Positions 33,155 through 53,390 of a stretch of DNA of 57,764 nt are shown piece after piece. The stretch lies in assembly GCA_016218825.1 (NCBI GenBank), contig JACRCV010000024.1, positions 1 to 57,764 on the forward strand, given 5' to 3'. Source of the stretch: Deltaproteobacteria bacterium. GTDB lineage: Bacteria; Myxococcota; XYA12-FULL-58-9. The notes under the pieces were generated by a model that was not told the DNA's origin, made no database searches, and worked only from the letters and a program-made list of their open reading frames with translations. How positions within the stretch are numbered: position 1 is the stretch's first letter; every line of letters begins with the position of its first letter. The translations under genes and the position numbers were made by a program.

Positions 33155-33907
33155 ATGACCGCGACCCCCGAGCCCCGTGACCTGCGCGTCCTCCCCGACC
33201 CCGCCGCCGTGGCCGAGGCGGCCGCCCGTGAGCTCTTCGCCGCCGCCCACCACGCCGTGCGCGAGCGCGGCACCTTCACCCTCGCCCTCTCCGGCGGCTC
33301 GACCCCGAAGAGGCTGTACAGCCTCCTCGCCCAGCAAGACCGGCCGTTCTTCGCCGAGTTTCCATGGGCAAAGACGGAGGTCTACTTCGGCGACGAGCGC
33401 TTCGTGTTGCCCGACCACGCCGACAGCAACTACCGCATGGCCCACGAGGCGCTCCTCGCGCACGTGCCCGTTCCCCCCGCGTCGATCCACCGCGTGCGCA
33501 CCGAGCTCGCGACCCCTGAGGCCTCCGCGCACGACTACGAAGGCCGCTTGCCGCGGCCCGCGTTCGCGGCCCATCCCCCGATCCCCGCTCTCGACCTCGT
33601 GCTCCTCGGCATGGGCAAAGACGCCCACACCGCGTCGCTGTTCCCGGACACCACCGCGCTCGCCGAGACCACGCGCCTCGTGGTCGCCAACTTCGTACCG
33701 AAGCTCGACGCCCACCGCGTCACGTTCACGTTGCCCCTCATCAACCACGCCCAGGCCGTGCTCTTCCTGGTCACCGGCGCCGACAAAGCCGCGCCGCTGT
33801 CGTGCGTGCTCGCCGGCCCGTCCCCGTCCCTGCCGGCGTCGCTGGTGCAACCGGTCTCCGGCCGCCTCACCTGGCTCGTCGATGCGGCGGCGGCGAAGGC
33901 GCTATAA
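33155..33907 (+). CDS. pgl: 6-phosphogluconolactonase
   Basis: This cytoplasmic enzyme hydrolyses 6-phosphogluconolactone to 6-phosphogluconate, between the reactions of zwf and gnd. It has 250 residues from MTATPEPRDLRV; the upstream in-frame ATG at 33077 adds an unlike leader. Motifs are GTFTLALSGGSTPKRLYSLL (phosphate-binding SGGxTP), WAKTEVYFGDERFV with the DER triad and ALDLVLLGMGKDAHTASLFP with the catalytic GxGxDGHTASLFP pattern, here KDAHTAS. All match the Pgl/DevB family. It stands apart from zwf-gnd by about 10 kb and on the opposite strand. Its stop overlaps the convergent reductase gene by 6 bp. Confidence 0.93.
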   Translation: MTATPEPRDLRVLPDPAAVAEAAARELFAAAHHAVRERGTFTLALSGGSTPKRLYSLLAQQDRPFFAEFPWAKTEVYFGDERFVLPDHADSNYRMAHEALLAHVPVPPASIHRVRTELATPEASAHDYEGRLPRPAFAAHPPIPALDLVLLGMGKDAHTASLFPDTTALAETTRLVVANFVPKLDAHRVTFTLPLINHAQAVLFLVTGADKAAPLSCVLAGPSPSLPASLVQPVSGRLTWLVDAAAAKAL

Positions 33908-34660
33908 GATGTACGGCAGGATCGCGCGCCGGCCGGCTGGATAGTCGGGGAAGGTCCGCCGATACCAGCGGTGGTTGGCGACCGCGCGCGGCACCAGGTT
34001 CGCGGCCGTGAAGATCGCGAACGCCGCCCCCGCGCACGACCAGGTCGCGATCGCAAAACCCGCCCACTCGATGAGCTCGCCGAGGTAGTTCGGACATGAC
34101 ACCAAGCGATACAACCCGCCGTGCGGGATCTGATAGCCGCCGTCCTTCCCGTCGCGCAGCCCCAAGAGCACCGCGTCCGCCTGCTGGTTGACGGCGAAGC
34201 CGGCGACGAACATCAGCGCCCCGACGACGAAGCGCGGGTCGATGAGCCACAGGAGCGGGTAGACGCCGAGCTCCGAGATCTGACGGGCGTTCAAGTAGGT
34301 GTTCAAAGCGTTGAACAGCAGCGCCAGCAACACGATGACGTAGGGCATGCGCCGCTGCGCTTCTTTGAGCCGCAGCGGATAGATGAAGGTGCGATGCAGG
34401 TAGTGCGCCTCCCAGAGCGCCAGAAAGACCAGGGGCACGAGCTCGGCCCGTTTGGCGCCGCCGAGATAGAGCAGCAGAAACCCCACCGCCGACGGGCTCT
34501 CCATCAGCATCCAGCCCCACCGACTCGCGATCGCCGGCCCCCAACCGCGGCGCACGTGCCGGCCGTAGGGCGCGGTGACGAACCACAACGCCACGAAGAC
34601 CGCGAGCCCGATCCCGATGACCACGAAGCTCAACACCCGGTGCAGCGCGACCTCGCTCAT
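33902..34660 (-). CDS. Steroid 5-alpha-reductase family membrane protein
   Basis: This encodes 252 residues with about six hydrophobic segments. The C-terminal half contains the family signature: YQIPHGGLYRLVSCPNYLGE, then WAGFAIATWS, then ANLVPRAVANHRWYRRTFPDYP with the conserved basic/Arg residues that bind NADPH in the 3-oxo-5-alpha-steroid 4-dehydrogenase (SRD5A) and DUF1295 families. Human-like SRD5A1 is 259 residues, so length fits well. It would reduce a double bond in a steroid or polyprenoid-like substrate at the membrane. It is the last gene of the operon with the epimerase and thioesterase (14 bp gap). Confidence 0.82.
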   Translation of the reverse strand: MSEVALHRVLSFVVIGIGLAVFVALWFVTAPYGRHVRRGWGPAIASRWGWMLMESPSAVGFLLLYLGGAKRAELVPLVFLALWEAHYLHRTFIYPLRLKEAQRRMPYVIVLLALLFNALNTYLNARQISELGVYPLLWLIDPRFVVGALMFVAGFAVNQQADAVLLGLRDGKDGGYQIPHGGLYRLVSCPNYLGELIEWAGFAIATWSCAGAAFAIFTAANLVPRAVANHRWYRRTFPDYPAGRRAILPYIL

Positions 34661-34673
34661 CGACCGCCGTCTC

Positions 34674-35675
34674 TCATGACCCGGCGCCGCTCGCGGCGGT
34701 CAGCGCACCCGCCTCTTCGAGCCACGCGTAAGTGTCGCGGATCGTCTCGACCAGCGGCCGGCTGTCGTACCCCAGCTCGGCACGCGCCTTGTGCGACGAG
34801 ATCGAAGGGTTGCCGCCAAGCGCCCGCAGCGACTCGCTGGTGTAGAGCGGCTCGTCGCCGCGGAGGCGGTTGTAACCGAGGACAAAGGGCGCCCCGAACC
34901 TCGCCAGCCACGACGGCACCACCTGGCGAGGCGCGGCAACGCCGGTCACGCTTTCGGCAGCCGCCGCGAGCGCGCCCACGGTGAGGTAGTGCCCCGACAA
35001 CAGGTAGCTCTCGCCTCTGCGACCCTGCGCCGCCGCGGCGAGCATCCCGGCGACGACGTCGCGCACGTCCACCCAGTCGAAGCCGCCGGGGACCAGCGCC
35101 ACGAACCGCCGGCGATAGAGGTCCAAGAGCACTTGCCCCATCCGCGACGGCTTGAAGTCGAAGGGCCCGAGCACCGCGGTCGGGTGGACGATCACCGCGT
35201 CGAGGCCGCGCGCGATCACCTCGCGCACCGCCCGTTCGCCGTGCGCCTTGGAGCGGTCGTAGGCCGGAAACGAGACGGCGAGCGCCCGCGCCGTGCGCTC
35301 GTCGACCGGCGCGCCGCTCCGCCGCTGGTCGAAGGCGTGGATCGAGCTGCAGTGCACCAGGCGGCGGACGCCTTGGGCGAGCGCGACCTCGGCGACGTTT
35401 CGCGCTCCTTCGATGTTGGTCCTTTCGACCAGGCCGCCGAGGCTGCCTTGGATCGAGATCTTGGCCGCGAGATGAAACACCACGTCGGCGCCCACGAACG
35501 CGCGCCCCAGCGCCTCGCGGTCGTTCACCTCACCTTCGACCAGCTCGACGTCGAGCCCGGCGAGCGCCCGGCGATCTTTGCGAACCAGACAGCGCACCGA
35601 CTCGCCCCGGGCGAGGAGCGCCCGAACCAGGTTGGCGCCCACATGGCCGGAGGCGCCGGTGACGGCGACGGTCAT
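34674..35675 (-). CDS. NAD-dependent epimerase/dehydratase, 3-beta-HSD-like
   Basis: This encodes 333 residues from MTVAVTGASGHVGANLVRAL; this ATG overlaps the stop of the upstream gene as ATGA. The Rossmann motif TGASGHVG, the FHLAAKISI strand, the Ser of HCSSIHAF and the catalytic YDRSKAHGE (YxxxK) identify an extended SDR. Motifs such as AVIVHPTAVLGPFDF, then VPGGFDWVDVRDV are shared with dihydroflavonol reductase/HpnA/3-beta-hydroxysteroid dehydrogenase-like members. With a 5-alpha-reductase-family gene next to it, a sterol, hopanoid or lipid alcohol is a plausible substrate; a sugar nucleotide is less likely. Confidence 0.83.
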   Translation of the reverse strand: MTVAVTGASGHVGANLVRALLARGESVRCLVRKDRRALAGLDVELVEGEVNDREALGRAFVGADVVFHLAAKISIQGSLGGLVERTNIEGARNVAEVALAQGVRRLVHCSSIHAFDQRRSGAPVDERTARALAVSFPAYDRSKAHGERAVREVIARGLDAVIVHPTAVLGPFDFKPSRMGQVLLDLYRRRFVALVPGGFDWVDVRDVVAGMLAAAAQGRRGESYLLSGHYLTVGALAAAAESVTGVAAPRQVVPSWLARFGAPFVLGYNRLRGDEPLYTSESLRALGGNPSISSHKARAELGYDSRPLVETIRDTYAWLEEAGALTAASGAGS

Positions 35676-36238
35676 TTGCGGCGTCGGGCCGCGAGCTCGT
35701 TGCTGCGCTCGAACAGGCGGTGCATGCGCTCGTCCATCGCCGACACCTGCTCGGGCTTGATCACGATGAAGAGGCCGTCGGCGTCGGCGAAGGTGTCGGT
35801 CGCGTGCGCGCTGGTGAGCACACCCTTGGCGGTCACCTTGCGGCCGTGCACCGCCTCGACCCAGGCGCGAAACCAGGCGACGGTGCCGAGAGGCACGATC
35901 TTGCGGAAGTTGACCGTCACCCGCGCCGCGACCACCGGGTGGCCGAGCATCCAGGCCGAGCCGCCCATCGCCTCGTCCATCAGCGCGCAGATGCTGCCGC
36001 CGTGCGCGTGGCCGGGCGGGCCCTCGGTGCCCGGGCCGAACCAGACCTTGCCGAGCATCGCGTCGTCGCCGTCCCGATGGTAGTAGCGCACCCGCAGCCG
36101 CTGGCCGTCGGGCTCGCCCGAGGCGTAGGAGCGGCCGGGCTCGTAGATCGCGGGCACCTCGAGGCGGGCCCAGCCGGGCTCGCCGGCGAGATCGGGGGCT
36201 CTGGCCTCGGACTCCAGGTGTTTGCTGCGGTGACTCAC
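35672..36238 (-). CDS. Hotdog-fold thioesterase (PaaI-like)
   Basis: This encodes 188 residues from the GTG at 36238; a TTG at 36259 would add seven residues. The hotdog core is clear: GKVWFGPGTEGPPGHAHGGSICALMDEAMGG contains the HGG motif and the helix with the acidic catalytic residue (DEAMG) typical of PaaI/THEM4-type acyl-CoA thioesterases. Next come the beta-strands AARVTVNFRKIVPLG and FRAWVEAVHGRKVTAKG. The C-terminus is an extra helix with FERSNELAARRRK. It is the first gene of an operon and its stop overlaps the epimerase start (ATGA). It probably hydrolyses an aryl- or acyl-CoA. Confidence 0.83.
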   Translation of the reverse strand: MSHRSKHLESEARAPDLAGEPGWARLEVPAIYEPGRSYASGEPDGQRLRVRYYHRDGDDAMLGKVWFGPGTEGPPGHAHGGSICALMDEAMGGSAWMLGHPVVAARVTVNFRKIVPLGTVAWFRAWVEAVHGRKVTAKGVLTSAHATDTFADADGLFIVIKPEQVSAMDERMHRLFERSNELAARRRK

Positions 36239-36321
36239 GACCGGCGCCCGTTGTAGCAAGCCCGCCGACGAGCGTCAAAGCGGCTTGCTTGGCGCACGGA
36301 TCTGACGCTAGACCAAGAGCC

Positions 36322-37509
36322 ATGCCGGTGGCGAGCACGATCAAAGAGGCGATGACCCGCTCGTCCTGGATCCGCAGGATGTTCGAGAAAGGCGCCGAGC
36401 TCAAACGCATCCACGGCGCCGCCGGGGTGTTCGACTTCACCCTCGGCAATCCGTTCCCCGAGCCCCCACCGGCCTTCTTCGACGGCCTCGAGGAGCTCGC
36501 GGCGCGCCGCCACGACGGCGTGCATCGCTACATGCCGAACGCCGGCTTCCCCGAGGTCCGCGCCCGCATCGCCCACAAGCTCGACCAGGACGGCGTCTTT
36601 CCCGGCATCGGCGAGCGCCACATCGTGATGTCGGTGGGCGCCGCCGGCGGCATGAACGTGACTTTGAAGACCATCCTCAACCCCGGCGACGAGGTCATCG
36701 TCTTCGTGCCCTACTTCGCCGAGTACCTGTTCTACATCACCAACCACGGCGGCGTGCCGGTGTTGGCCGAGACCGACGGGAGCTTCGACATCGACCTCGA
36801 CAAGGTCGCGGCCCTCATCAACCCCAAGACCCGCGCCATCGTCGTCAACTCGCCCAACAACCCCACCGGCCGCATCTACCCCGAGGCGTCGCTTCGTGGC
36901 CTCGCGGCGCTGCTCGCGGCTTGCGAGAAGCGGGTCGGCCATCCGATCTACTTGATCGCCGACGAGCCCTACCGCGAGGTGGCCTTCATCCCAAAGCTGC
37001 CGCCGACCCCCGCAGCGCTGCACCCCAATTCGTTCCTCTGCTACTCGTGGTCGAAGTCGCTGTCGTTGCCGGGCGACCGCATCGGCTACGTCGCGGTGAA
37101 CCCGCAGATCGACGACGCCCCGAGCATCGTCGACGGCCTGACCTTCACCACCCGCACCCTCGGCTTCGTCAACGCCCCGGCAGTGATGCAGCTCATCGTC
37201 ACCAAGCTGTTGGACGTGACCGTCGACATGGGCTGGTATCGCTCCCGCCGCGACCGGGTCCTCGCGGGCTTGCGCCAGGCCGGCTACGACGTCATGACCC
37301 CGGAGGGCACGTTCTACGTGTTCCCGCGCGCCCCGGGGCAAGACGACGTCGCGTTCGTAAACCACGCGCTCAGCGAGCGGGTGCTCGTCGTCCCCGGCAG
37401 CGGCTTTGGCCGCTCGGGCTACTTCCGCATCTCTTACTCGGTCGACGACCGGACGATCGACGGCGGCCTCGAGGCGCTGGCGCGGGTGCGACGCTCGGGA
37501 TCAGCCTAG
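36322..37509 (+). CDS. Class I/II pyridoxal-phosphate aminotransferase
   Basis: This encodes 395 residues from MPVASTIKEAMTRSSWIRR; an in-frame ATG 33 bp earlier is less likely. It has the fold-type I layout: a substrate loop FDFTLGNPFPEPP near the N-terminus, NSPNNPTGRIYPE (about 175-187), YLIADEPYREVAFI (Asp and Tyr that contact PLP), and the Schiff-base lysine in CYSWSKSLSLPGDRIGY. It is similar to bacterial aspartate/alanine-type aminotransferases whose N-terminus reads ...GKPxF..., here FTLGNPF. The specific amino acid cannot be read. Its TAG and the TAG of the convergent GH92 gene share the palindrome CTAG. Confidence 0.85.
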   Translation: MPVASTIKEAMTRSSWIRRMFEKGAELKRIHGAAGVFDFTLGNPFPEPPPAFFDGLEELAARRHDGVHRYMPNAGFPEVRARIAHKLDQDGVFPGIGERHIVMSVGAAGGMNVTLKTILNPGDEVIVFVPYFAEYLFYITNHGGVPVLAETDGSFDIDLDKVAALINPKTRAIVVNSPNNPTGRIYPEASLRGLAALLAACEKRVGHPIYLIADEPYREVAFIPKLPPTPAALHPNSFLCYSWSKSLSLPGDRIGYVAVNPQIDDAPSIVDGLTFTTRTLGFVNAPAVMQLIVTKLLDVTVDMGWYRSRRDRVLAGLRQAGYDVMTPEGTFYVFPRAPGQDDVAFVNHALSERVLVVPGSGFGRSGYFRISYSVDDRTIDGGLEALARVRRSGSA

Positions 37510-39927: not shown

Positions 39928-42057
39928 TTACCGTTCACGGGGGACCGCCCGCCGCGAGAAGATCCTGCGACCTCGACCCCACCCCGACGACATCCGGCGC
40001 TGCCAGACACCGAAGTCCTCGGGCCGCGAACGGCCGTAACACAGGTCGGCGAGGCGCTCGAGCTCCATGAACGGCCGCAGCACCTGCGACCACCGACGCG
40101 GGCGGAGCCGCGCCAGATCGCGTTTCGGCACCCACTCCCGAAACACCGCGAGCCACCGCGACGCGACCCGCGCCGCCGGCCGCGAGACGTCGGTGGCATA
40201 GGGAGACAACAGCGCGCGCCACGGCTCCGGCTGCCGGGCCCGAAGGGCGCGAACCAGCGCCGGGACTCGACCCTCGAGATCGAACAGCGGCGCCGGGCAG
40301 CGCTGCTGCCAATAGCCGAACGTCACCTGCGCCTCGGCCCGCAGACCGCGCAGCGCCACGGTGCGGGCAACGAGGCGGCGCTTCTGCCGTGGGCTCTGGG
40401 CGCGAACCGTCTCGGGCCGCAGACCAAGGAAGGCGGCGACACCGTCGACGTAGCCCTCGACATAGGCGCGATCGAAGCGCGCCAAAGCGCGTCGCTCCAG
40501 AGGGCCGGCCTCGGCGCCGCCGAGGAGACGGCCGGTCGCGAGCACGGCCACGAGTCGCTTCACCTGCAGGCGCCAGACCTGACGGTGCGCCCGCACCCGG
40601 CGCTTGCCGTTCAGGAACTCGTAGTCGGGGACGTAGTGCCGGAAGAAGCGCACGGTCGAGTAGTCGACGAAGTGGCCGTCGAGGCGGACATTGCCGAGGG
40701 TCGGGTTGAAGCCGTGAATGTTGAGGGCATCGCTGCGACCGACGTCGTGGCCGAGGTTGGTCGCAAAGTTGCGCACCAGGCGGGGCAGGGTCCGCGGGTT
40801 TTGGAGATCGTAGCGCGGTGCGAGCAACAGCGGCGCGACGTGGTTCACGAGCGACGCGAGCGCCCGGGGTTGCGACTCCCAGAGCTTGAGATGGGCGAGA
40901 CGGAAGTGGGTGTCCGCGACCCGCAGCGCCGCCGCCGCCGGCCAGCGCCGGTGGGTGTTGTCGAGGGTCGTCTTGCCGGTGCTGAGGATCGCCAGCACCT
41001 CCGGGGTCACGAAGCCCAAGCGCGCGAGCTCGTCGGCGACCGCGACCTCCCAGAGGGTCCGCGGAAACGACACGAAGCCGTCGCGGTGGAAGGCGCGCGC
41101 CGCCCAGCGCAGCGGGGTGCGGCCGCAACCCTTGAGCATCAACTCGCGGCGGCCGTACGGCCCGCCGGCGATCTCGCCGAGGTAGATGGCCCGACCGTCG
41201 CCTCTGGCACCGGCGGCGTCGGTGGTCGGGGAGTCCTGGTAGCGCGAGCACAGGCCGAGCTCGGTCTTGCGGCGCGCATGGGTCGCGAGGTTCGCCACCC
41301 GCAACAGGGTCCGCAAGGACCAGTCGAGCCCGAGCCGACGCCGGAGGCGCTCGTTCACCCACAACAGCCGCGCGCCCGGCACCGGCCCGACCGCGGTGAG
41401 CTCGTAGAAGCGCGCCTCGGGCGGCCAGAACGACGGGCGCAGGAAGCCCGGGCCGTCGAAGCGCTGCCGCCAGCGCAGGTAGCGGCGCAGCGCCCGCGGC
41501 AGGGTGGCACGGGTGACCGCGGCGAACGGGTCGTAGCCGTGACGAACACCGGCGTCGACGAGCACCGCGCGCTTCAGGACGGCGTCGTAGATCAGGTTTC
41601 CGGGCGACACCTCGAGACCGAGCCCGGTGGCGCGCCGCAGCGCCTCCGCGGCGGCCCACGTCTGCCAAAGGGCGTTCGACACCGGCGCCGGCAGTCGGCC
41701 CCGGCCCTGGCGCAGGAGCTCCAAGACGCTGACGCCGTCGACCCAGTCCCGCACCAACGCCGCGCGGTCGCGATCCCAAGCGTAGAGCCGCGGCAGCGGC
41801 AGCGCGTGCGAGACGGTCTGCAGCGCCAGGAGGACGTCGAGCTCCTCGCAAAGACGGCGCCGACTGGCAGCGGTGGGATGCGCGAGCTTGATCGCCAGTC
41901 GACCGCAGACCCGGACTTGGGCGGTGAACCCGAGCCCCCCGAGCGGCAGCCCGCCGAGCCGGTCGGAGCAGAGCAGACGCTCGGCGGACGTGATGGCGCG
42001 CGCCTTGACGATGGTCGCCTCCCTCGAGATGGCCTCGAGATCGCGGTCGCTTTGCAA
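39928..42057 (-). CDS. Fusion of a kinase-like domain to a divergent SelO-like domain
   Basis: This encodes 709 residues from a TTG at 42057. Residues about 1-200 look like a kinase fold: GRLAIKLAHP (beta-3 Lys), EELDVLLAL, RDWVDGVSVLELL, then LEVSPGNLIYD and AVLVDAGVRHG (DFG-like). The HRD/HGD Asp is replaced by LEV. Residues about 200-600 parallel SelO (YdiU): ARLLWVNERLRRRLGLD, ELMLKGCGRTPLRWAAR (lysine), TLWEVAVADELARLG, LRVADTHFRLAHLKLWES, DALNIHGFNPTLGNVRL and FVDYSTVRFF. SelO proteins AMPylate other proteins; their HGVxNTDN loop is altered here. SelO alone is about 480-550 residues, so this is longer and has an added N-terminal domain. The start is not fixed by a ribosome binding site. 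Confidence 0.65.
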   Translation of the reverse strand: MQSDRDLEAISREATIVKARAITSAERLLCSDRLGGLPLGGLGFTAQVRVCGRLAIKLAHPTAASRRRLCEELDVLLALQTVSHALPLPRLYAWDRDRAALVRDWVDGVSVLELLRQGRGRLPAPVSNALWQTWAAAEALRRATGLGLEVSPGNLIYDAVLKRAVLVDAGVRHGYDPFAAVTRATLPRALRRYLRWRQRFDGPGFLRPSFWPPEARFYELTAVGPVPGARLLWVNERLRRRLGLDWSLRTLLRVANLATHARRKTELGLCSRYQDSPTTDAAGARGDGRAIYLGEIAGGPYGRRELMLKGCGRTPLRWAARAFHRDGFVSFPRTLWEVAVADELARLGFVTPEVLAILSTGKTTLDNTHRRWPAAAALRVADTHFRLAHLKLWESQPRALASLVNHVAPLLLAPRYDLQNPRTLPRLVRNFATNLGHDVGRSDALNIHGFNPTLGNVRLDGHFVDYSTVRFFRHYVPDYEFLNGKRRVRAHRQVWRLQVKRLVAVLATGRLLGGAEAGPLERRALARFDRAYVEGYVDGVAAFLGLRPETVRAQSPRQKRRLVARTVALRGLRAEAQVTFGYWQQRCPAPLFDLEGRVPALVRALRARQPEPWRALLSPYATDVSRPAARVASRWLAVFREWVPKRDLARLRPRRWSQVLRPFMELERLADLCYGRSRPEDFGVWQRRMSSGWGRGRRIFSRRAVPRER

Positions 42058-44274: not shown

Positions 44275-45552
44275 CTACAGGGACGATCGCGCTGCCGGCG
44301 CCGATGTGGACCGCCGAGCCTGCCGCCGGTCATGGCGTGGACGAATCGTCCCGACTCCCGGCCCCGAAGGCGCCGAGCACGTGCGGCGCTCCCTGGTTGC
44401 TTCGGAGGTCACGACCGCGGCCAGGCGCGCACACAAGAGCTGCGTCTCCTCCAGCGTGCCGCTCGTGATCCGCACCCAGGTCGCGAGGCGCGGGTGGCGC
44501 ATCGGCCGAACGATGATCCCCCGGCGGAGCAACGCCTGGAACACGGTCTCCGAGTCGATGCCGACGTCGACCAGCAGGAAGTTGGCCGCCGACGGCACGA
44601 CCCGACAGCCGAGCGCGCCGAGCTCGGTCGCCATCCAGTCGAGAGCTTGGCGATTGAGATCGACCGAGCGCCTGACGTGGTCGCGGTCGGCGAGGCTCGC
44701 TCGCGCCGCCAGTTGCGCGATGTGGCTGGTGCAAAACGGCACCTGGGCGCGCTCGAGCCAGCGGCTGACGTCGAGGTGGGCGAGCGCGTAGCCGATGCGC
44801 AGCGCCGCCAGGCCATAGACCTTCGAGAAGGTGTGGAGGATGACCACGTTCGAATGCCGGCGCCAGAGCTCCATCAGCGCTCGGCCGGCGTCCGGCGAGC
44901 CGTACTCGAGGTACGCCAGATCCAGGACACAGAGCACCCTGGGCGGCAGCGCCGCCAAGAAGCGCTCGAGCGCCGCGGCGCGGATCTCCTTGCCGGTCGG
45001 GTTGTTCGGCGACGCCAAGAACACCACCCGCGTCGCCGGCGTCACCGCGGCGAGCATCCGCTCCAGGTCGTGGTCGAAGTCCGGGTCGAGCGGCACGCTG
45101 ACCGGGGTGGCGCCCGCGAGGCGCGTGCTGCTCGCGTACATCGGAAAACACAGATCGGCCATCAGCGCCTCGGTCTGCGGCTCGAGGTAGGCCGAGGCAA
45201 TCACCCGCATCAGCTCCGCCGAGCCCGCGCCGAGAATGACGTTCTCGGCCTGCACCGCGTGCTTCTCGGCGAGCGCCGCGACGAGCAGCCGGCCGCAGGG
45301 GTCCGGGTAGCGTCCGAGGCTCTGCGCCGCCGCGGCGACCGCGGTGCACGCGGCGGGCGACGCCCCGAGCGGGTTTTCGTTGGAGGCGAGCTTCACGACC
45401 CGATCGAGCCCGAGCTCGCGCCGCACGGCGTCGATCGAGCGTCCGGGCTCGAACGGCGAGATCAGCGCCAGCGCCGCGCGCGGCACCACTCCCCCGGCTG
45501 CCGCGGCAACGGCCTCGCCCGCACGTTCCGGCACCGCTCCCATAGCCGCCAT
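44275..45552 (-). CDS. hisC: HisC-like PLP aminotransferase in the signalling operon
   Basis: This encodes 425 residues. The core is HisC-like: VKLASNENPLGASPA, then GRYPDPCGRLLVAALAEKH, ILGAGSAELM, then VFLASPNNPTGKEI, LCVLDLAYLEYG, the Schiff-base Lys in HTFSKVYGLAALRIGYA, and the end with RPMRHPRLATWVRITSGT. After residue 380 comes a polar, arginine-rich tail of about 40 residues that is not part of the family; it may be a late stop due to drift. No other his gene is near. It starts 21 bp after the REC-kinase, inside an operon with a ThDP enzyme and a KAS III-like enzyme, so it probably modifies a pathway product rather than making histidine. Confidence 0.78.
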   Translation of the reverse strand: MAAMGAVPERAGEAVAAAAGGVVPRAALALISPFEPGRSIDAVRRELGLDRVVKLASNENPLGASPAACTAVAAAAQSLGRYPDPCGRLLVAALAEKHAVQAENVILGAGSAELMRVIASAYLEPQTEALMADLCFPMYASSTRLAGATPVSVPLDPDFDHDLERMLAAVTPATRVVFLASPNNPTGKEIRAAALERFLAALPPRVLCVLDLAYLEYGSPDAGRALMELWRRHSNVVILHTFSKVYGLAALRIGYALAHLDVSRWLERAQVPFCTSHIAQLAARASLADRDHVRRSVDLNRQALDWMATELGALGCRVVPSAANFLLVDVGIDSETVFQALLRRGIIVRPMRHPRLATWVRITSGTLEETQLLCARLAAVVTSEATRERRTCSAPSGPGVGTIRPRHDRRQARRSTSAPAARSSL

Positions 45553-45573
45553 CCCGCACTCCCCCGACCCTGC

Positions 45574-46752
45574 TCAGCCAGTCTTGCGCACCGTGAAGGT
45601 CACGGTGGTGCCGACGCCTTCGCGACTCTCGATCTGGATCTTGCCGCCCGCCCCCTCCACCAGCCGCTTGCACTGACTCACCCCGATCCCGGTCCCATCG
45701 GTGCGGGTGGTGAAGAACGGCGTCCCGACCTTCTGCTGGGTCTCCGCCGACATGCCCGGACCATTGTCGCTCACCACGAACTCCAGGAAGTCGCCGACGT
45801 CCCTCCACCGACACTCCACCCGCCCGGCGCCTGTGCGTTGCCGGCCCAGCGCTTGCGCCGCGTTCGTCAGCAGGTTGATCAGCACCTGCGCCAGCTCGGC
45901 GTTGCCGAGCGCACAGCGCGGCAGCTGCAGCACCTCGTCGAACACCGGCTCGCCGTTGACCGCGAGGATCGAGCGCCGGCACACCGCGAGCGCGAAGCTC
46001 ACGCCGACGGTCGGATCGGAGCCGACCTGGCCCTCGAACGCCGGGCGCGGCCGCAGCAGGTACTCCACCCCGCGCACCAGGGTGGTGATCATCTGCGCGC
46101 CGTGCGTCAAGGTCTCGACGATCTCCGGCAGCTCGGCCGCGAGCTCGGTGATTCGATGCCGGTCCTCCGGCTGCAACGAATCGCCGCCGTACCGGACCAG
46201 GCGCGCGAGCGCGGCGCTGGACTTCGCGAGCTCGGCGAGGTGGTCGACGTTATACTGAATGTACGATAGCGGCTGGCTGAGGTCGTGGATCATCGCGGCG
46301 TTGATCGAGCCCAAGGTCGCCAACCGCTCCATCGCCAACAGCCGCAGCTGGGTCTCGGCGTGCAGGCTGCCGAGCTCGTAGGTCTCGAGCCCCCACGCCA
46401 GCATCTCTTCGATCTGCGTCCGATCCCAGGGCTTGATGACATAGCGCGCCACCAGGCCGTCGTTCACCGAGCGCAAGATCGGATCCAGATCCGAGTAGGC
46501 GGTGATCACCATCCGCACGATCTCCGGGTGCCGCTGCCGAGCGATCTCCAAGAGCTCGTTCCCCGAGAGCTCCGGCATCCGCTGGTCGGTGATCAGCACC
46601 GCGACCTTCTGCGACCCCAAGATCTTCAGCGCCTCGGCCCCGGAGCTCGCGGTCTGCACCCAGAACGCCTCACCGAAGGTGTGCTCGAACACCAGGCGGT
46701 TGCCGGAATCGTCGTCGACGTAGACAATCAGCGCAGCCTTGCGGTCGATCAT
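45574..46752 (-). CDS. Response regulator-histidine kinase hybrid
   Basis: This encodes 392 residues. An N-terminal REC domain (about 5-125) has the phospho-acceptor in VLITDQRMPELSGN (about 56) and the YVIKPWD lysine. A histidine kinase follows: H-box AAMIHDLSQPLSYIQYN (about 155) and HATPase with LAQVLINLLTNAAQALG (N-box), DNGPGMS and TPFFTTRTDGTGIGV, ending TVTFTVRKTG. There is no sensor domain, so the protein is presumably driven through its REC domain. It overlaps the preceding hybrid kinase (ATGA). The REC-HK order resembles kinases that receive a phosphoryl group from another kinase. Confidence 0.88.
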   Translation of the reverse strand: MIDRKAALIVYVDDDSGNRLVFEHTFGEAFWVQTASSGAEALKILGSQKVAVLITDQRMPELSGNELLEIARQRHPEIVRMVITAYSDLDPILRSVNDGLVARYVIKPWDRTQIEEMLAWGLETYELGSLHAETQLRLLAMERLATLGSINAAMIHDLSQPLSYIQYNVDHLAELAKSSAALARLVRYGGDSLQPEDRHRITELAAELPEIVETLTHGAQMITTLVRGVEYLLRPRPAFEGQVGSDPTVGVSFALAVCRRSILAVNGEPVFDEVLQLPRCALGNAELAQVLINLLTNAAQALGRQRTGAGRVECRWRDVGDFLEFVVSDNGPGMSAETQQKVGTPFFTTRTDGTGIGVSQCKRLVEGAGGKIQIESREGVGTTVTFTVRKTG

Positions 46753-49700
46753 GACACCTCCGTGCGTTTCCTCTGCGACTGCGGCGAGCTCGGCGTCGGC
46801 ACCCAGCCGGCGGTGCGCGGCTGCTCGAGAGGCAGCTCGACCCGAAAACGAGCGCCCCGCGATTGAGTGACGAGGGAGAGATTGCCGCCATGCCTCTCGA
46901 CGTAGGCCCGCGCCATCGTCAGGCCGAGGCCGGTGCCGACGCCCGGCGGCTTCGTGGTGAAGAACGGGTCGAAGATCTTGTCCCGCAGCTCGACCGGCAC
47001 CCCCGGACCGCTGTCGGCGACGTCGATCACCAAGACGCCCTCCCGACAGAACGCGTGAATCGCAATCTCCCCGGCGTCGCCCACCGCGTGCACCGCGTTC
47101 GTGAGCAGGTTCGTCAGCACCTGCACCACCAACGGCTGGGCGCAGAGGACCTTGCCGTCGTACTCGACTCTCCGGACCAGCTCCACGCCGGGCGGTCGCG
47201 GGATCATGCCCTGGATCGCGTGGTCGATGATCTCCACGACCGGCGTCTCGACGAGCGTGATCTGCTTGCCCGACCTCAATCCCAACAGCTCCCGCGCCAG
47301 GTTCGCCATCTGCGCCGCGTTGCGCTCGACCGCCGCCAAGATCTCACCCGCCGGCGTCCCCGCGGCCACCGAGCCGTTGGGCAACAACCGCCGCAGCGGC
47401 CCGATGGCGTTGACGACCACGTTCGCCGGGTTGCGGATCTCGTGCGCCAGCCCCGCCGCCAACACCCCCACCGAGGTCATCGTCTCGGCGTCGTGAAGCT
47501 TGAGCGCCAGGCGCCTGAGCTCGAGCTGCGCCCGAACCCGCGCCACCAACTCCGCGGGCACGAACGGCTTCGCCACGTAGTCCACCGCGCCGGCCTCGAA
47601 GCTCTTCAGCCGGGTGCCGACGTCGCCGTAGGCGGTCAGCACGATCACCGGCGCCAAGCGATTGCCGGGCAGCTCGCGGAACCGCTTCGCGAGCTCGATG
47701 CCGTCCATGTTCGGCATCGCGATGTCGGTCACCAAGAGGTCGGGCCGGTGCTCCTTCGCCAGCGCCAGCGCGCTGACGCCGTCTTTGGCCGGGATCGTTC
47801 GATACGTTCGCCCCAAGATCCCGACAATGCCCTCGAGCAGGCGCGCGTCGTCCTCGGCGCAAAGCACCGTCGCGTCGGCGGCGACTTCCGGCTCGACGAT
47901 CCCCAGAACCGGAGACACCGGCACCGGCACCGGGGCGAACGCCGCCGCGAGCTTCGTCTGCCGGAGCCCGGCCACGTCGCCCGGGGTCGCTTCGCCGCGG
48001 CGCGGCAGGACGAAAGAGAAACACGAGCCGCCGCCCGGATTGTCGGCGTGGAACACCCGGCCGCCGTGCGCGATCGCCAGCTCCTTGACGATGGCGAGGC
48101 CGACGCCGCTGGTGCGAAACCCGGGGTGCACCGCCGGCCGGCCGGGCATGAAGCGCTCGAAGAGGTGCTCCTTGCTCGTCGGGTCGAGGCCGATGCCGGT
48201 GTCTTTGACCTCGACCCGGACGTGCGCCTCGTCCGGCTCCGTGAGGCTCACCTCGATGCGGCCGCCCTTGGGCGTGAACTTGACCGCGTTCGAGAGCAGA
48301 TTGGTGACCATACGGCCGAGCCCTTCCGGGTCGACCTCGGCCTCGAGCCGCTCCGGCCCGACGAAGGACAGGGCGCTGCCGTTGGCCTCGGCCACCGGCC
48401 GCCAGGCGCTTGCTTGCCGGCGGAGAATGCCGGCGACGTCGGCTTCGACTCGGTGCAGGCGCAGGTCGGACTCTTCCGCGGCGGCGAGCAGTAACAGATC
48501 GTCCACCAGGCCCAAGAGCTGCGCGGCGCTGGCCTCGATGTCGTGCAGCCGCCGGCCGATCTCCGGGTCGGTCGCGGTCGCCGGCCGTTCCCTGAGGGCA
48601 TCGACCGCGACGCTGACCAGTGCCAGCGGTGTGCGGATCTCGTGGTTGATGTTCGCGAAGATCCGATCGCGCACCTTCTGGGCCTCGTTGAGGCGAAGGA
48701 CGGTCGCCTGGAGCTTGTCGCGGGCGTGCTCCAATTCGGTCGTGCGCTCGATGACCTTGCGCTCGAGGTTGTCGCGGTAGTCGACGACGGAGGTGAAGGC
48801 CACGGCGTCGTCGATCGCCATGTGAATCGTGGGGACCACGACCTCGAGGAGCTCGCCGCGCTCGGTCCGGTCGGCGCCGGCCGTCAGCCAGAGCTGCACC
48901 TCGCCGATCTGTCGCGCCCGCACGACAACCGGCGCGTGGATCGGTTCGGTGCCGGAGCCAACGTCGCCGTGCTGCGCGTGGCGAGACAGCGGCCTGCCTT
49001 CGGTGTCGGTCTCGATGGCGACCTTGGCGCCAGCGAAGCCGGCCTGCTCGACAAGCGCCACCGCGACCGCCTTCAGGGTGCGCTCGACGTCGAGCCCCTG
49101 GTGCACCGCCTGCGCGATGCTGTACGCGGTGTTGAGCTGCATCGCTTGCCGCGCCAGCTTGATGCGCGCCTCGTCGAGCTCGGCGTAGCGCTGCTGGAGG
49201 ATCTCGTGGGCCTCCTTGACCTCCCTGGCCGCGCTTCTGGCGGTGAAAGGCCACGTGACGGCTTTGCGGAGCCAGGCCAGCGTGCCGCCGCCTGGCGGAT
49301 AGACGATGTCGTAGGTCGCGCCGTCGCTGTGCAAGCTCATCTCCACCTGGGCATGCGGCAATCCCAGGAACCGCGGAAAGCCGGCCAACGATCCTTTGGT
49401 GGTCACGAAGAACTCCTCAAACATCTCATGCCCGGGTTGCAGACGGAGCGCGACGCGGACGCGGTTGGTGCCCGCGTCCTCGATGGCAGGTGAGACACAC
49501 GTGAACATCTGGTTGCCCGGCCCCTTGCCAGGTTGGTTGTGCCAAAAGTAGAACTCCCGCGGCGTGAACAGCAGCCCGGCAACCACGGCCATGAAGCGAA
49601 ACTGCGGCGACTCCGCCAGCGACCGGCCGAAGGCCTCGAAGTCTCCGAGACTCCACACTCTCGAGGCATTCCTGTTGATTTGCCGCCACACCGACCATTC

Positions 49701-49832
49701 GATCCGCTCGTGTTTGTTTCGCAGATGGTCGAGCGGGTAGGGCACGTCGAGGACGAGGGTGTCGCTTCCCCGTCCCTGTTTGCGAAATGCAGCGTCCAAG
49801 GCAATGAACGCGTTGCAGGATACTTCCTTCAC
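46749..49832 (-). CDS. Large hybrid histidine kinase (sensor-GAF-HK-REC-HK)
   Basis: This encodes 1027 residues from a GTG that directly follows the stop of the KAS III gene. Residues about 1-190 form a novel-looking sensory domain. A GAF-like domain (about 215-350) and coiled coil lead to kinase 1: H-box [12 protein letters not shown] (about 395) and HATPase with [23 protein letters not shown] domain (about 652-770) has [10 protein letters not shown] and VAKPF. A second complete kinase follows: H-box [13 protein letters not shown] (about 797), [27 protein letters not shown]. It has no transmembrane segments, so it is cytosolic. Two kinase cores in one chain allow an internal relay. The next gene overlaps by ATGA. 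Confidence 0.88.
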
Positions 49833-50909
49833 CTAGTGCCCCCAGCGCAGCACCACGCTCGACCAGGTCATGCCACTCCCGCCGGAAAACGTCGCAACGA
49901 CGTCGCGGTCCTTCAACAGATGCTCCCTCTCCGCCGTTGCCAGGACCAGCGGGACATTCGCCGCGCTGAGGCTCCCCGCCCAGGGGAACGTGCTCAGTGT
50001 CCGAGCGTTCCCTAGACCGATGAAGTCCTTGGTGACCCTCGAAAACCACTCGGTGGCTTGATGACAGGCGTAGAAATCCACGTCCGCGACCGTCAAGCTG
50101 GCGTCATTCAACGCTTCGCTGACGACCTCCCGGGCGAGATCCGCGATACCGACGATCACCGTGCGCGAGCGCTCACGGTCGCGCGGGTACCACCAGATCC
50201 GTCCGTCCTCGTACCAGCGACGACCGGGGACGCTCGCAACCAGGGTATCTTGGGTGGCGCCGTCGGTCCCGTGCGCTCTTCCGAGAATACCGCAGCCATC
50301 GGCAACCGGACCCACGACGACCGCAGTGGCACCCTCTCCGAACCAAGCTGATGAAGGCACCTGGGGGTCGATGAGCCGTCCGACTTGAGTGGACTGTGTC
50401 AACAGGCCGTATCGGACATTGCCGCCTCGAATCAGCTGCTCCGCGAGAGTCAGCTGCTGCAGGAACGTGTTGCACGCCCCGTCGATGTCGGTCGTAAAGC
50501 ATGCACGACTCAGGCCCAGGTTCTTGTGGACTGCGCAGGAATTCGGCGTCGTCAGGTAGTCGGGAACCTGGCTGTATCCGAGCACGAAGCCAATCTGCGC
50601 CGGATCAATCCCAGAACGCTCGATGGCCTCCCGCGCGGCCGCGGTTTCCATTTCCGAAGCGAGGCCGCTCTCCGGTGCAACACGGCGTTCCTTGGCCCCG
50701 CAAAACGGCTCACGACGTGCGGCCGCGATGGCCTCCATACAGCGCCGTTCACCCTCGGAGAGGTGGGGCGGCGGGCCGCCTTCTGGCAGCAATTCCGAGT
50801 TCTTCTTCGCCCATTTCTCCACCACCGCCTTCGGCCACCACTCATTGGTCCGAATCTCGTCCGGGAGATAGACGCCAATGCCGAGAATACCCACGTTCAT
50901 GTCTGCCAT
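49833..50909 (-). CDS. 3-oxoacyl-ACP synthase III-like enzyme with unusual active site
   Basis: This encodes 358 residues from MADMNVGILGIGVYLPDE; AGGAG precedes this ATG. It has the thiolase fold of FabH. The nucleophile is the Cys in DIDGACNTFLQQLTLAE (about 145), the His is in FYACHQATEW (about 283). The canonical Asn of the NTSAAS motif is missing: the sequence reads AGSLSAANVPL (about 311), placing Ser there. Such C-H-x enzymes (for example CerJ-type) transfer acyl groups to alcohols, amines or keto-acids rather than extend fatty acids. It has an extra loop EGGPPPHLSEGERR near residues 40-53. It lies between the ThDP enzyme and hybrid kinase genes in one operon. Confidence 0.83.
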   Translation of the reverse strand: MADMNVGILGIGVYLPDEIRTNEWWPKAVVEKWAKKNSELLPEGGPPPHLSEGERRCMEAIAAARREPFCGAKERRVAPESGLASEMETAAAREAIERSGIDPAQIGFVLGYSQVPDYLTTPNSCAVHKNLGLSRACFTTDIDGACNTFLQQLTLAEQLIRGGNVRYGLLTQSTQVGRLIDPQVPSSAWFGEGATAVVVGPVADGCGILGRAHGTDGATQDTLVASVPGRRWYEDGRIWWYPRDRERSRTVIVGIADLAREVVSEALNDASLTVADVDFYACHQATEWFSRVTKDFIGLGNARTLSTFPWAGSLSAANVPLVLATAEREHLLKDRDVVATFSGGSGMTWSSVVLRWGH

Positions 50910-50945
50910 TTGCCTGCTCCTCATTAACCTCGTTGCCCAAGGGTA

Positions 50946-52682
50946 CTAGTTGAGTTCCGCAACTCGCGCGCTCTTCTTCACCTTATCGACCCGCCGGTTG
51001 CCGGGGATCGTCGCGCGCGGGTCGAGGTGCACGTCCAATACCATCGGCCGGACACGCCGCGCCTTGAGCACCGCCGCGACCTGATTCGGCCCGTCGATCG
51101 TCGTACCGTCGCAGCCGACGGCGCGCGCTAGGTCGGTGACCGACATCGGCGCGGTCTCGAAGCGCGGCGTCCGCCCATAGACCGCCGCCTGGCCGTACTC
51201 GACCATGCCGAGGCCGCCGTTGTTCAGCACCGCGACGACGATCGGCAGCTCGTAGGCAGCCGCGGTGAGCAGCTCGCCGGCGGTCATCGCCAAGCCGCCG
51301 TCGCCCAACACCGCGACCACGCTGCGCTCAGGGTTGCCGACCTGCGCGCCGATGGCGGTGCCGATCGCGGTGCCCATCGAGCCGAGCCCCATCAAACAGA
51401 CGAAGGCGTCCGGGTGGTCGATCTTCAGGTAGTGGATCGCAAAGAACAGGTTCGTGCCGCTGTCGGTGGTGTAGATGGTGTCGGGCGGCAACACCTGCTG
51501 TAGCTCCCACAAGGCGCGCGGCGCGCCGATGCCGGGGCCGACGCCGTCGGGGACCTCCTGCGGATCGCGATCGTAGAGGATGCGACAAGGGGACATCGCC
51601 GCCGCCTGGGGCGCGAGCTGGAGCAGTTGTGCGAAGAAGATCTCGGCGGGCGCGACGATCGCCAGATCGGTCTCGTACACCCGGCCGACCCGCGCCGCGT
51701 CGACGTCCACGTGGATCAAGGTCCGCCCGCCTTTGAGCAACGGGCTCCAGCCATCGGTCGCCACCTCGTTGAGGCTGCTGCCGACCACGAGGATGGTCTC
51801 GACGCCGGCTTCGAGGTACGCCGTCGTCGACGGATGCCCGCCCATGCCGAACACGCCGAGCGACAGCGGGTGACTCTCGGGGAACACGCCCTTGGCCTTC
51901 GGCGTCGTCATCACCGGGCACTGCAGGCGCTCCGCGACCTCGCGGAGCAACGCCGGCCCGTGTCCGAAGCGCGTCCCGGCGCCGGCGAGCAGCACCTTGC
52001 GGCCTGCGCCTGACAAGGCGCGAAGCGCCTGCTCGATCGGCGCCTGCGACAGCCCCGATTCGGAGGTGGCGCTGAAGACGACGGCGGGAGCCGGGATCGC
52101 GACGCCGAGCACGTTCAGCGGCAAGCTTACGAACACCGGCCCCCGCTTGCCCGTCATCGCGACGCCGACCGCGCGCCGCAGCATGCTCGGCAGCGCCGCG
52201 GCCTCGGGGACCTCGAACGCCAGCTTCGACACCTTCGCGGCCATGCCCACCAGGTTGAGGGCGTAGACGCTCCCCTCCTGAACGGCGCCGCGCCCGAAGC
52301 CGTCTCGCGCCGCTTCGCCGGCCAGCAGCAGCACCGGCAGGCCGTCGCTGAAGGCGCAGGCGAGGCCGTTCATCGCGTTCAGCGCCCCAGGGCCGGACGT
52401 GACCAGCGCCACGCCGAGCCGACCGGTGGTCTGAGCGTAGCCGGCGGCAGCGAACACGGCGTTGGCCTCGTGCTTGACGGTGACCATCCGCACCTGCGGT
52501 CGGTCCATGAGCGCGTCATAGATCGGCGCCACCGCCGCCCCCGGCAGCCCGAACACCGTGTCGACACCGACGGCGATGAGCTGGTCGACGAGCAGATCTG
52601 CCGCCCGCCGCGGCAGATCCCGGTTGCGGCGGCTGTGACGCCCTGGAACGGAGGAGACGGCCGGAATTCTATCGTGCTGCAT
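50946..52682 (-). CDS. ThDP-dependent acetolactate synthase-like enzyme
   Basis: This encodes 578 residues. The ThDP-activating Glu is in VKHEANAVFAAAGYA (about 70), the pyrimidine domain has DTVFGLPGAAVAP and TSGPGALNAMNGLACAFSD, the central domain has KVLLAGAGTRFGHGPALL (FAD/nucleotide-like), and the pyrophosphate domain has the motif GDGGLAMTAGELLTAAAYEL followed by VVAVLNNGGLGM (GDG...NN). Such enzymes decarboxylate a 2-keto-acid and join it to a second carbonyl, making acyloins or acetolactate. No regulatory IlvN partner or ilvC is nearby, so branched-chain amino acid synthesis is unlikely. It lies directly after the response regulator gene (22 bp). Confidence 0.87.
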   Translation of the reverse strand: MQHDRIPAVSSVPGRHSRRNRDLPRRAADLLVDQLIAVGVDTVFGLPGAAVAPIYDALMDRPQVRMVTVKHEANAVFAAAGYAQTTGRLGVALVTSGPGALNAMNGLACAFSDGLPVLLLAGEAARDGFGRGAVQEGSVYALNLVGMAAKVSKLAFEVPEAAALPSMLRRAVGVAMTGKRGPVFVSLPLNVLGVAIPAPAVVFSATSESGLSQAPIEQALRALSGAGRKVLLAGAGTRFGHGPALLREVAERLQCPVMTTPKAKGVFPESHPLSLGVFGMGGHPSTTAYLEAGVETILVVGSSLNEVATDGWSPLLKGGRTLIHVDVDAARVGRVYETDLAIVAPAEIFFAQLLQLAPQAAAMSPCRILYDRDPQEVPDGVGPGIGAPRALWELQQVLPPDTIYTTDSGTNLFFAIHYLKIDHPDAFVCLMGLGSMGTAIGTAIGAQVGNPERSVVAVLGDGGLAMTAGELLTAAAYELPIVVAVLNNGGLGMVEYGQAAVYGRTPRFETAPMSVTDLARAVGCDGTTIDGPNQVAAVLKARRVRPMVLDVHLDPRATIPGNRRVDKVKKSARVAELN

Positions 52683-52704
52683 GACTACCCACCTGCTCTC
52701 GATG

Positions 52705-53325
52705 TCAGAGGTCGATGGGCGACCGTGATTCGCCGATGACCTGTGGATCGATGTCGAGGGCCTGCAACAACAACGACAGCTTGATGGGCTTGGCGAAACA
52801 ACGCACGGCGCCGGCGTCCTTGGCCTGGGCCTCGACGTCCGCGGTCAGATGCGCGGTGGAGATGATCACCTTGACGCGCTTGGTCTCGTCCATCGCCCGC
52901 AGGCGGCGGCAGACCTCGATGCCGTTCAGCCCCGGCATGATCACGTCGAGCAACACCACGTCCGGCGCGAAGAGGCCCACCATCACGAGGGCGTCGATGC
53001 CGCGACTGGCGGTGCGCACCTCGACCCGGTCGCGATACGGCTTCAGCATCCGCTCGATGGCCTTGAGCTCGCGAGGCTCGTCGTCGACGACCAAGAGCCG
53101 GCGCTCGTTGACGCGCGACAGCTCGCGGGGCAGCGCCATCTCGTGGACACGGATGAAGGTGACGAGATCGGCGACGCGGATGCGGTGATGGCCCCCCGGG
53201 GTCTTGAACGCCACCAGGCCACCCTTCTTCACCCAGTTGTTGATCGAGCTCGGGTCCACCTGCAGCAAGTCGCTGACCTCATAGGAGGTGAGAAGGGTGT
53301 CTGGACCTAGTTCTGTTGCTTTCAC
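52705..53325 (-). CDS. Response regulator with N-terminal MerR/excisionase-type HTH
   Basis: This encodes 206 residues from a GTG with GAGGAAAA 4 nt upstream. Residues about 11-50 are a MerR/excisionase-type helix-turn-helix (LTSYEVSDLLQVDPSSINNW, then TPGGHHRIRVADL). A REC domain follows (about 75-190), with phospho-acceptor in DVVLLDVIMPGLNG (about 120), RRLLVVDDEP at the acidic pocket and FAKPIKLSLLLQAL at the end. DNA-binding N-terminal to REC is the reverse of the usual OmpR/NarL order; this layout is known in a small set of actinobacterial/deltaproteobacterial regulators. It is the first gene of the operon and may autoregulate it. Confidence 0.83.
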   Translation of the reverse strand: MKATELGPDTLLTSYEVSDLLQVDPSSINNWVKKGGLVAFKTPGGHHRIRVADLVTFIRVHEMALPRELSRVNERRLLVVDDEPRELKAIERMLKPYRDRVEVRTASRGIDALVMVGLFAPDVVLLDVIMPGLNGIEVCRRLRAMDETKRVKVIISTAHLTADVEAQAKDAGAVRCFAKPIKLSLLLQALDIDPQVIGESRSPIDL

Positions 53326-53361
53326 GATTTTCCTCTCTGTCTGTGATTGCTCAGGTTGAGG

Positions 53362-53390
53362 CTTATACCGATCTGAAACCCGTTTGGCAA
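53362..53390 (-). promoter_or_regulatory. Sigma70-type promoter of the signalling/biosynthesis operon
   Basis: Reading the minus strand: TTGCCA (53390-53385), 17-bp spacer, TATAAG (53367-53362), each five of six to consensus, the best promoter in this window. It gives a leader of about 30 nt before the GTG at 53325. The interval up to 53461 is AT-richer than its surroundings; an incomplete inverted repeat CTCA-ACC-TGAG lies just downstream. Confidence 0.65.

Follow-up and report, generated by a model that had tools for sequence, protein, structure and literature searches.

An Operon Linking Thiamine Diphosphate and KAS III-Like Enzymes to a Soluble Hybrid Kinase May Encode a Previously Undescribed Kind of Chemical Signaling System

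A six-gene operon of enzymes and two-component proteins

The stretch of DNA analyzed here (the window; 57,764 nucleotides) comes from contig JACRCV010000024.1 of a deltaproteobacterium of the phylum Myxococcota (assembly GCA_016218825.1), the draft genome of which consists of 6.5 Mb in 121 contigs. Six minus-strand genes, extending from position 53325 to position 44275, form one operon. In the direction of transcription, they encode a helix-turn-helix (HTH) response regulator with a receiver (REC) domain (52705..53325), a thiamine diphosphate (ThDP) enzyme (50946..52682), a β-ketoacyl synthase III (KAS III)-like enzyme (49833..50924), a hybrid histidine kinase (46749..49832), a REC-kinase (45574..46752), and a HisC-like aminotransferase (44275..45552). 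This cassette may be a chemical signaling system of a previously undescribed kind.

The gaps between consecutive genes are 22, 21, 0, −4, and 21 bp: the TAG stop codon of the KAS III gene directly abuts the GTG start codon of the hybrid kinase gene, which in turn overlaps the REC-kinase gene in an ATGA. The HTH-REC gene starts with GTG, with AGAGG upstream. The putative promoter, TTGCCA-17-TATAAG (53362..53390, minus strand), is the sole 10-of-12 match with a spacing of 16 to 18 on either strand of the window; a stricter promoter scan omits it because position 6 of the −10 hexamer is not the usual T. The operon had been proposed, together with this promoter, in a first-pass annotation made from the sequence alone, and its genes, coordinates, and junctions were all borne out. 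The wecB gene (44188-43088), which lies 86 bp downstream, was considered as a further member and left out, its homologs not being found beside other cassettes.

The catalytic and phospho-acceptor residues inspected are intact, namely, Glu72 and the GDG motif of the ThDP enzyme, Cys151 and His288 of the KAS III-like enzyme, the SK motif of the aminotransferase, both H-boxes and both N-boxes of the kinases, and the receiver aspartates. The HTH-REC regulator, in which Pfam models identify HTH_17 and receiver domains, is the probable output of the system, and the REC-kinase was likewise identified with Pfam. The protein initially labeled a hybrid kinase does contain the HisKA-HATPase-REC arrangement that this name implies, but the label is incomplete: these domains are preceded by an N-terminal sensor domain (residues 4-186; 49275..49823) and followed by a second kinase module. 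No obvious membrane helix was detected in any of the six proteins, so that the hybrid kinase is taken to be soluble.

Conservation of the cassette and co-divergence of its parts

Relatives of the cassette were sought in 195 genomes of the host's phylum. A KAS III profile retrieved 17 proteins scoring at least about 250 bits, the next scores being 230 bits and below and mostly representing the FabH core only; 15 of the 17 belong to a single clade in the KAS III tree (support 94/95). For 12 of these 15, the next gene downstream on the same strand encodes the same hybrid kinase, including its N-terminal domain, at a distance of no more than about 28 bp and often with the two genes abutting or overlapping. 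The kinase-linked loci are spread over seven families. The REC-kinase gene accompanies 10 of the 12 and the HTH-REC gene 8, counts that include some loci on cut contigs. At one of them (L039), the ThDP and HTH-REC genes are relocated, but the KAS III and kinase genes are still together. The aminotransferase, although part of the operon as first described, is found in the window only and is therefore a local addition outside the conserved set. The conserved unit is thus the ThDP enzyme, the KAS III-like enzyme, and the hybrid kinase, usually with the REC-kinase and the HTH-REC regulator, and the search of other genomes for the same gene order, which the first-pass annotation had suggested, showed the first three kept together in 12 genomes.

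The association was also recovered from the opposite direction. When the first 230 residues of the hybrid kinase were used as the query, 14 strong matches (above 120 bits) were found in the same genomes, 13 of them beside a ThDP gene, a KAS III gene, or both; for example, one locus (L161) contains the ThDP enzyme, hybrid kinase, and REC-kinase genes without a KAS III gene. The single strong match not located beside the enzymes (L158) is in G029, a genome in which a pair of ThDP and KAS III genes without a kinase is also present. None of the weaker matches that were fetched (118 bits or less) was beside ThDP or KAS III genes. Plasmid records yielded no sensor-domain match and KAS III proteins only at 29% identity or less, and a scan of genome contigs with the KAS III alignment, drawn toward ordinary FabH by a single generic-motif pattern, yielded no cassette. 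Samples of three other groups (244, 297, and 297 genomes), reached via a cyanobacterium, a Desulfobulbus, and an acidobacterium, respectively, contained no KAS III protein in the score range of the cassette, an absence that is weak evidence because few candidates were scored per genome.

Pairwise identities were compared over 11 to 12 loci to relate the divergence of the different parts of the cassette, with significance assessed by a Mantel test. The sensor domain diverges in parallel with the KAS III-like enzyme (r = 0.73, Mantel P = 0.0002), and the correlation persists when the kinase core is held fixed (partial, 0.69). It is higher than that between the sensor domain and its own kinase core (0.57 to 0.59) or between the KAS III-like enzyme and the kinase core (0.36 to 0.44), the latter falling to −0.12 with the sensor held fixed; between the KAS III-like and ThDP enzymes, the correlation is 0.20 and not significant. 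Omission of any single genome leaves the KAS III-sensor value between 0.65 and 0.82, and omission of the four most diverged loci leaves it at 0.51, compared with 0.15 for the sensor and core. Such a pattern of sequence divergence would be expected of a last enzyme and a receptor pocket that evolve in step.

Relatives of the enzymes and fold of the sensor

The closest solved relatives of the ThDP enzyme are BbmA and CsmA, which rank ahead of acetolactate synthases and are described as CybE homologs or α-hydroxy-β-keto acid synthases (PMC12395478, PMC13307353). CybE couples two α-keto acids, and CybF, annotated as a 3-oxoacyl-acyl carrier protein (ACP) synthase, O-acylates the product and then cyclizes it to a butenolide (PMC12395478, PMC8777810, PMC13288894). 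A furanolide-type cluster from the cyanobacterial sample (L219), which encodes an aromatic amino-acid lyase, a coenzyme A (CoA) ligase, ThDP and KAS III enzymes, and a chorismate mutase, served as the reference. In the ThDP tree, in which a few rows are unresolved, the cassette enzymes and the L219 type are both apart from the acetolactate synthases (100/100). In the KAS III tree, the CybF-type clade that includes the cluster-defined L219 protein (100/100) is separate from the adjoining cassette clade, and both are apart from FabH (100/100). The two KAS III clades share an extra segment of about 30 residues, with 41 to 53 residues preceding the GAxERR motif versus about 20 in FabH. They differ in the catalytic residues: the CybF-type clade has Asn or Thr in place of the catalytic His and keeps the Asn, whereas in the cassette clade the His is retained and the Asn is mostly gone, as in the window.

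Judged by these sequence comparisons, the ThDP and KAS III pair is related to CybE and CybF, the builders of furanolide (butenolide) cores. Like CybE and CybF, the cassette enzymes are encoded side by side and have intact catalytic motifs; unlike them, they come without a lyase or CoA ligase gene and with kinases attached. The pair probably works in the manner of CybE and CybF, even though its KAS III member lies outside the CybF clade, and its product may differ from theirs. The product suggested in the first-pass annotation, a simple acyloin or aminated ketone, gives way to other chemistry, the nearest characterized logic being that of the CybE/CybF furanolides or the CqsB3/CqsB1 carbazoles. 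The carbazole pathway employs an aminotransferase, then a ThDP enzyme, then a KAS III-like enzyme (CqsB7/CqsB3/CqsB1; NzsH/NzsJ; PMC7466098), and enzymes of these three types are encoded in the operon. However, the operon has kinases attached and contains no CqsB2-type cyclase or further enzyme gene, and a carbazole pathway was set aside for lack of the cyclase.

Two further groups of enzyme pairs were encountered. Four loci of the same phylum (L178, L179, L180, and L181) carry ThDP and KAS III pairs of the CybF-type clade without a kinase and are candidate furanolide gene pairs. Two genomes of the cyanobacterial sample combine a CybF-type KAS III and a ThDP enzyme with a large GAF histidine kinase of 1,345 to 1,354 amino acids (L213, 6986-14743; L215, 6355-14001). 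This kinase differs in type from that of the cassettes, and the association of such enzymes with kinases may therefore have arisen twice.

For the sensor domain, sequence searches against Pfam and the PDB yielded only a weak trace of PF12625, in 3 of 9 members (best E value, 0.0089). The AlphaFold model (pLDDT, 91.4) was more informative: residues 4 to 180 match the H-NOX fold with a Z score of 14.3 and a root mean square deviation of 3.1 over 165 residues, and further matches were found to VirS (Z, 11.7) and to Bet3-type TRAPP proteins (Z, about 10), among them a chain whose structure was solved with palmitate. The domain thus resembles H-NOX domains, the N-terminal domain of VirS, and TRAPP Bet3 in predicted fold but is only 8 to 14% identical to them in sequence, is fused to a hybrid histidine kinase, and lacks heme ligands; the conserved His at the heme position (proximal) and the YxSxR motif are absent from all 21 aligned members. 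The H-NOX/VirS/Bet3 fold accommodates hydrophobic ligands, and the modeled sensor is probably a soluble pocket for a ligand of this type. Remoter heme-less H-NOX-fold domains occur on other proteins, away from ThDP and KAS III genes (L162, L164, L166, L168, and L171-L173), and can be read as a wider family of receptor domains.

A possible make-and-sense unit and its alternatives

The arrangement invites comparison with the CqsA/CqsS system of Vibrio and the LqsA/LqsS system of Legionella, in which the synthase gene is located beside a sensor kinase gene, with a hybrid kinase and a response regulator downstream (PMC3376566). In the cassette, too, the genes for a synthase and a sensor kinase are immediate neighbors, a pairing kept in 12 genomes. 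Conversely, its synthase is a ThDP and KAS III pair rather than one pyridoxal phosphate (PLP) enzyme, and its sensor is soluble with an H-NOX fold, whereas theirs has six membrane helices. A CqsA-type PLP synthase and a six-helix sensor were both looked for in the cassette and not encountered, the sole PLP enzyme being the HisC-like aminotransferase, which is not conserved; the cassette is therefore not classed with CqsA/CqsS. The best reading is a synthase paired with a sensor in the manner of CqsA/CqsS, assembled from unrelated components. No paper on a ThDP-derived or furanolide signal with a histidine kinase was found in the literature searched.

What was observed directly, namely, the gene set, its conservation, the clades, the intact residues, the predicted fold, and the co-divergence, would fit the following scheme. 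In the window only, an amino acid would probably be converted by the aminotransferase to one of the keto acids used. Cys151 of the KAS III-like enzyme would accept an acyl group from a CoA or ACP thioester, and the enzyme would then join this group to the ThDP-derived acid, yielding a hydrophobic hydroxy-diketone, acyloin ester, or butenolide. This product would diffuse between cells and be bound in the cytosol by the heme-less H-NOX-fold domain of the kinase. Binding would shift the flow of phosphoryl groups via the receiver and second module of the kinase and onward, by way of the REC-kinase, to the HTH-REC regulator, whose targets probably include its own operon and others. There are hints of what else may be controlled: a methyl-accepting chemotaxis protein (MCP) gene and a CheA gene follow the cassette in the same genus (L030), an MCP gene and a CheA-CheW-REC gene lie downstream of the cassette in L039, and the cassette of L032 is located near genes for an H-NOX-domain protein, an NtrC-type regulator, and a GGDEF-EAL response regulator, pointing to control of motility or lifestyle.

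The idea that one operon both makes and senses a small molecule, put forward in the first-pass annotation, is supported in part, by the conservation of the ThDP, KAS III, and kinase genes together and by the lack of the branched-chain amino acid and histidine pathways in the host family, with its chemistry corrected as described above. We consider it reasonably probable that the operon is a self-contained unit of signal synthesis and sensing of this kind. Several points weigh against it. Relatives having the enzymes without the kinases, which were named at the outset as a finding that would count against the idea, do exist: 3 of the 15 clade members (L033, L035, and L037) have no adjacent kinase, compared with the 12 that do. 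In two kinase-linked KAS III proteins (L032, 9407-10483; L036, 9308-10396), Ser replaces the catalytic Cys, the other motifs being kept. The co-divergence was computed from 11 to 12 loci and, because the KAS III and sensor-coding stretches physically adjoin, could also result from recombination. Finally, a kinase co-regulated with a biosynthetic operon need not bind its product, and the scheme is inferred with respect to the reactions, the compound made and how it is exported and bound, the sequence of phosphotransfer steps, and the regulatory output.

The kinase-less loci would suit pathway-specific control of an ordinary secondary metabolite, under which the enzymes produce a furanolide or acyloin resembling an antibiotic and the kinases only switch this production on or off in response to another cue, such as a precursor, a fatty acid, or stress. 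Furanolides are indeed antibacterial (PMC12395478), and CybE/CybF homologs are reported, without mention of a kinase, from myxobacteria producing deoxyenhygrolides (PMC8777810). Such control is nevertheless unlikely, though far from negligible, given that the sensor tracks the KAS III-like enzyme more closely than its own kinase core, that the operon lacks a transporter, resistance, or tailoring gene, and that four other regulators or chemotaxis genes are found beside cassettes. The solubility of the sensor kinase, which has no membrane helices, would also be compatible with purely internal feedback, in which a lipid or metabolite product is retained inside the cell, where the kinase gauges its level; chemotaxis-type genes next to two of the cassettes hint instead at a role in behavior, and this reading is quite improbable. 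An ordinary H-NOX heme sensor for nitric oxide or oxygen that controls the enzymes would account for the fold match, but the heme ligands are missing from every aligned member, and gas sensing was set aside as very unlikely.

Primary metabolism, which the first-pass annotation had itself raised as an objection, would make the three enzymes an acetolactate synthase, FabH, and HisC. The aminotransferase does exceed the cutoff of TIGR01141 (302.9 versus 276.55 bits; hisC is its best model) and is the only HisC-like gene found in the host genome (G000), in which the ThDP enzyme is likewise the sole match to TIGR00118, with no other acetolactate synthase present. That match, however, reaches 338 of 538 bits, 200 bits under the cutoff. 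The three genomes of the host family (G000, G001, and G002) contain no acetolactate synthase over this cutoff, no ilvC, which is present in 14 of 14 control genomes, and no hisD, which is present in G004 and G008; because of these absences, roles in branched-chain amino acid or histidine synthesis are strongly disfavored. A separate FabH-like gene is found elsewhere in the host genome (contig C8), and the kinase would be left unexplained, so that this possibility is extremely remote. The aminotransferase more likely supplies an α-keto acid than makes an aminated ketone. Because some HisC-like enzymes are aromatic aminotransferases, the second PDB match being a putative phenylalanine aminotransferase, this acid can reasonably be guessed to be an aryl keto acid. 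As a separate observation, auxotrophy for branched amino acids and histidine seems likely in this family, such as might be expected of a predator.

Beyond the single operon, it is possible, although we would stop short of calling it probable, that the cassettes represent a new class of bacterial communication, in which a butenolide- or hydroxydiketone-type signal from ThDP and KAS III enzymes is read by a hybrid kinase with a heme-less H-NOX fold, spread through one phylum as matched synthase-receptor pairs that diverge with their own specificities. If true, this would join two separate fields, furanolide-type natural-product enzymes and two-component signaling, identify neighboring genes for a candidate signal synthase and its receptor in bacteria with large genomes, and give the heme-less H-NOX fold a role as the receptor for a self-made molecule. 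The two enzymes and the soluble sensor domain would be enough for a test in vitro, in which cognate and noncognate combinations could be drawn from the 12 diverged pairs.

Elsewhere in the window, a gene of the 3-oxo-5-α-steroid 4-dehydrogenase type adjoins one of the 3-β-hydroxysteroid dehydrogenase/epimerase type (33902-36449), and a 709-amino-acid frame with a partial match to SelO, a protein adenylyltransferase, is located beside a GH92 glycosidase gene (39928-42057).

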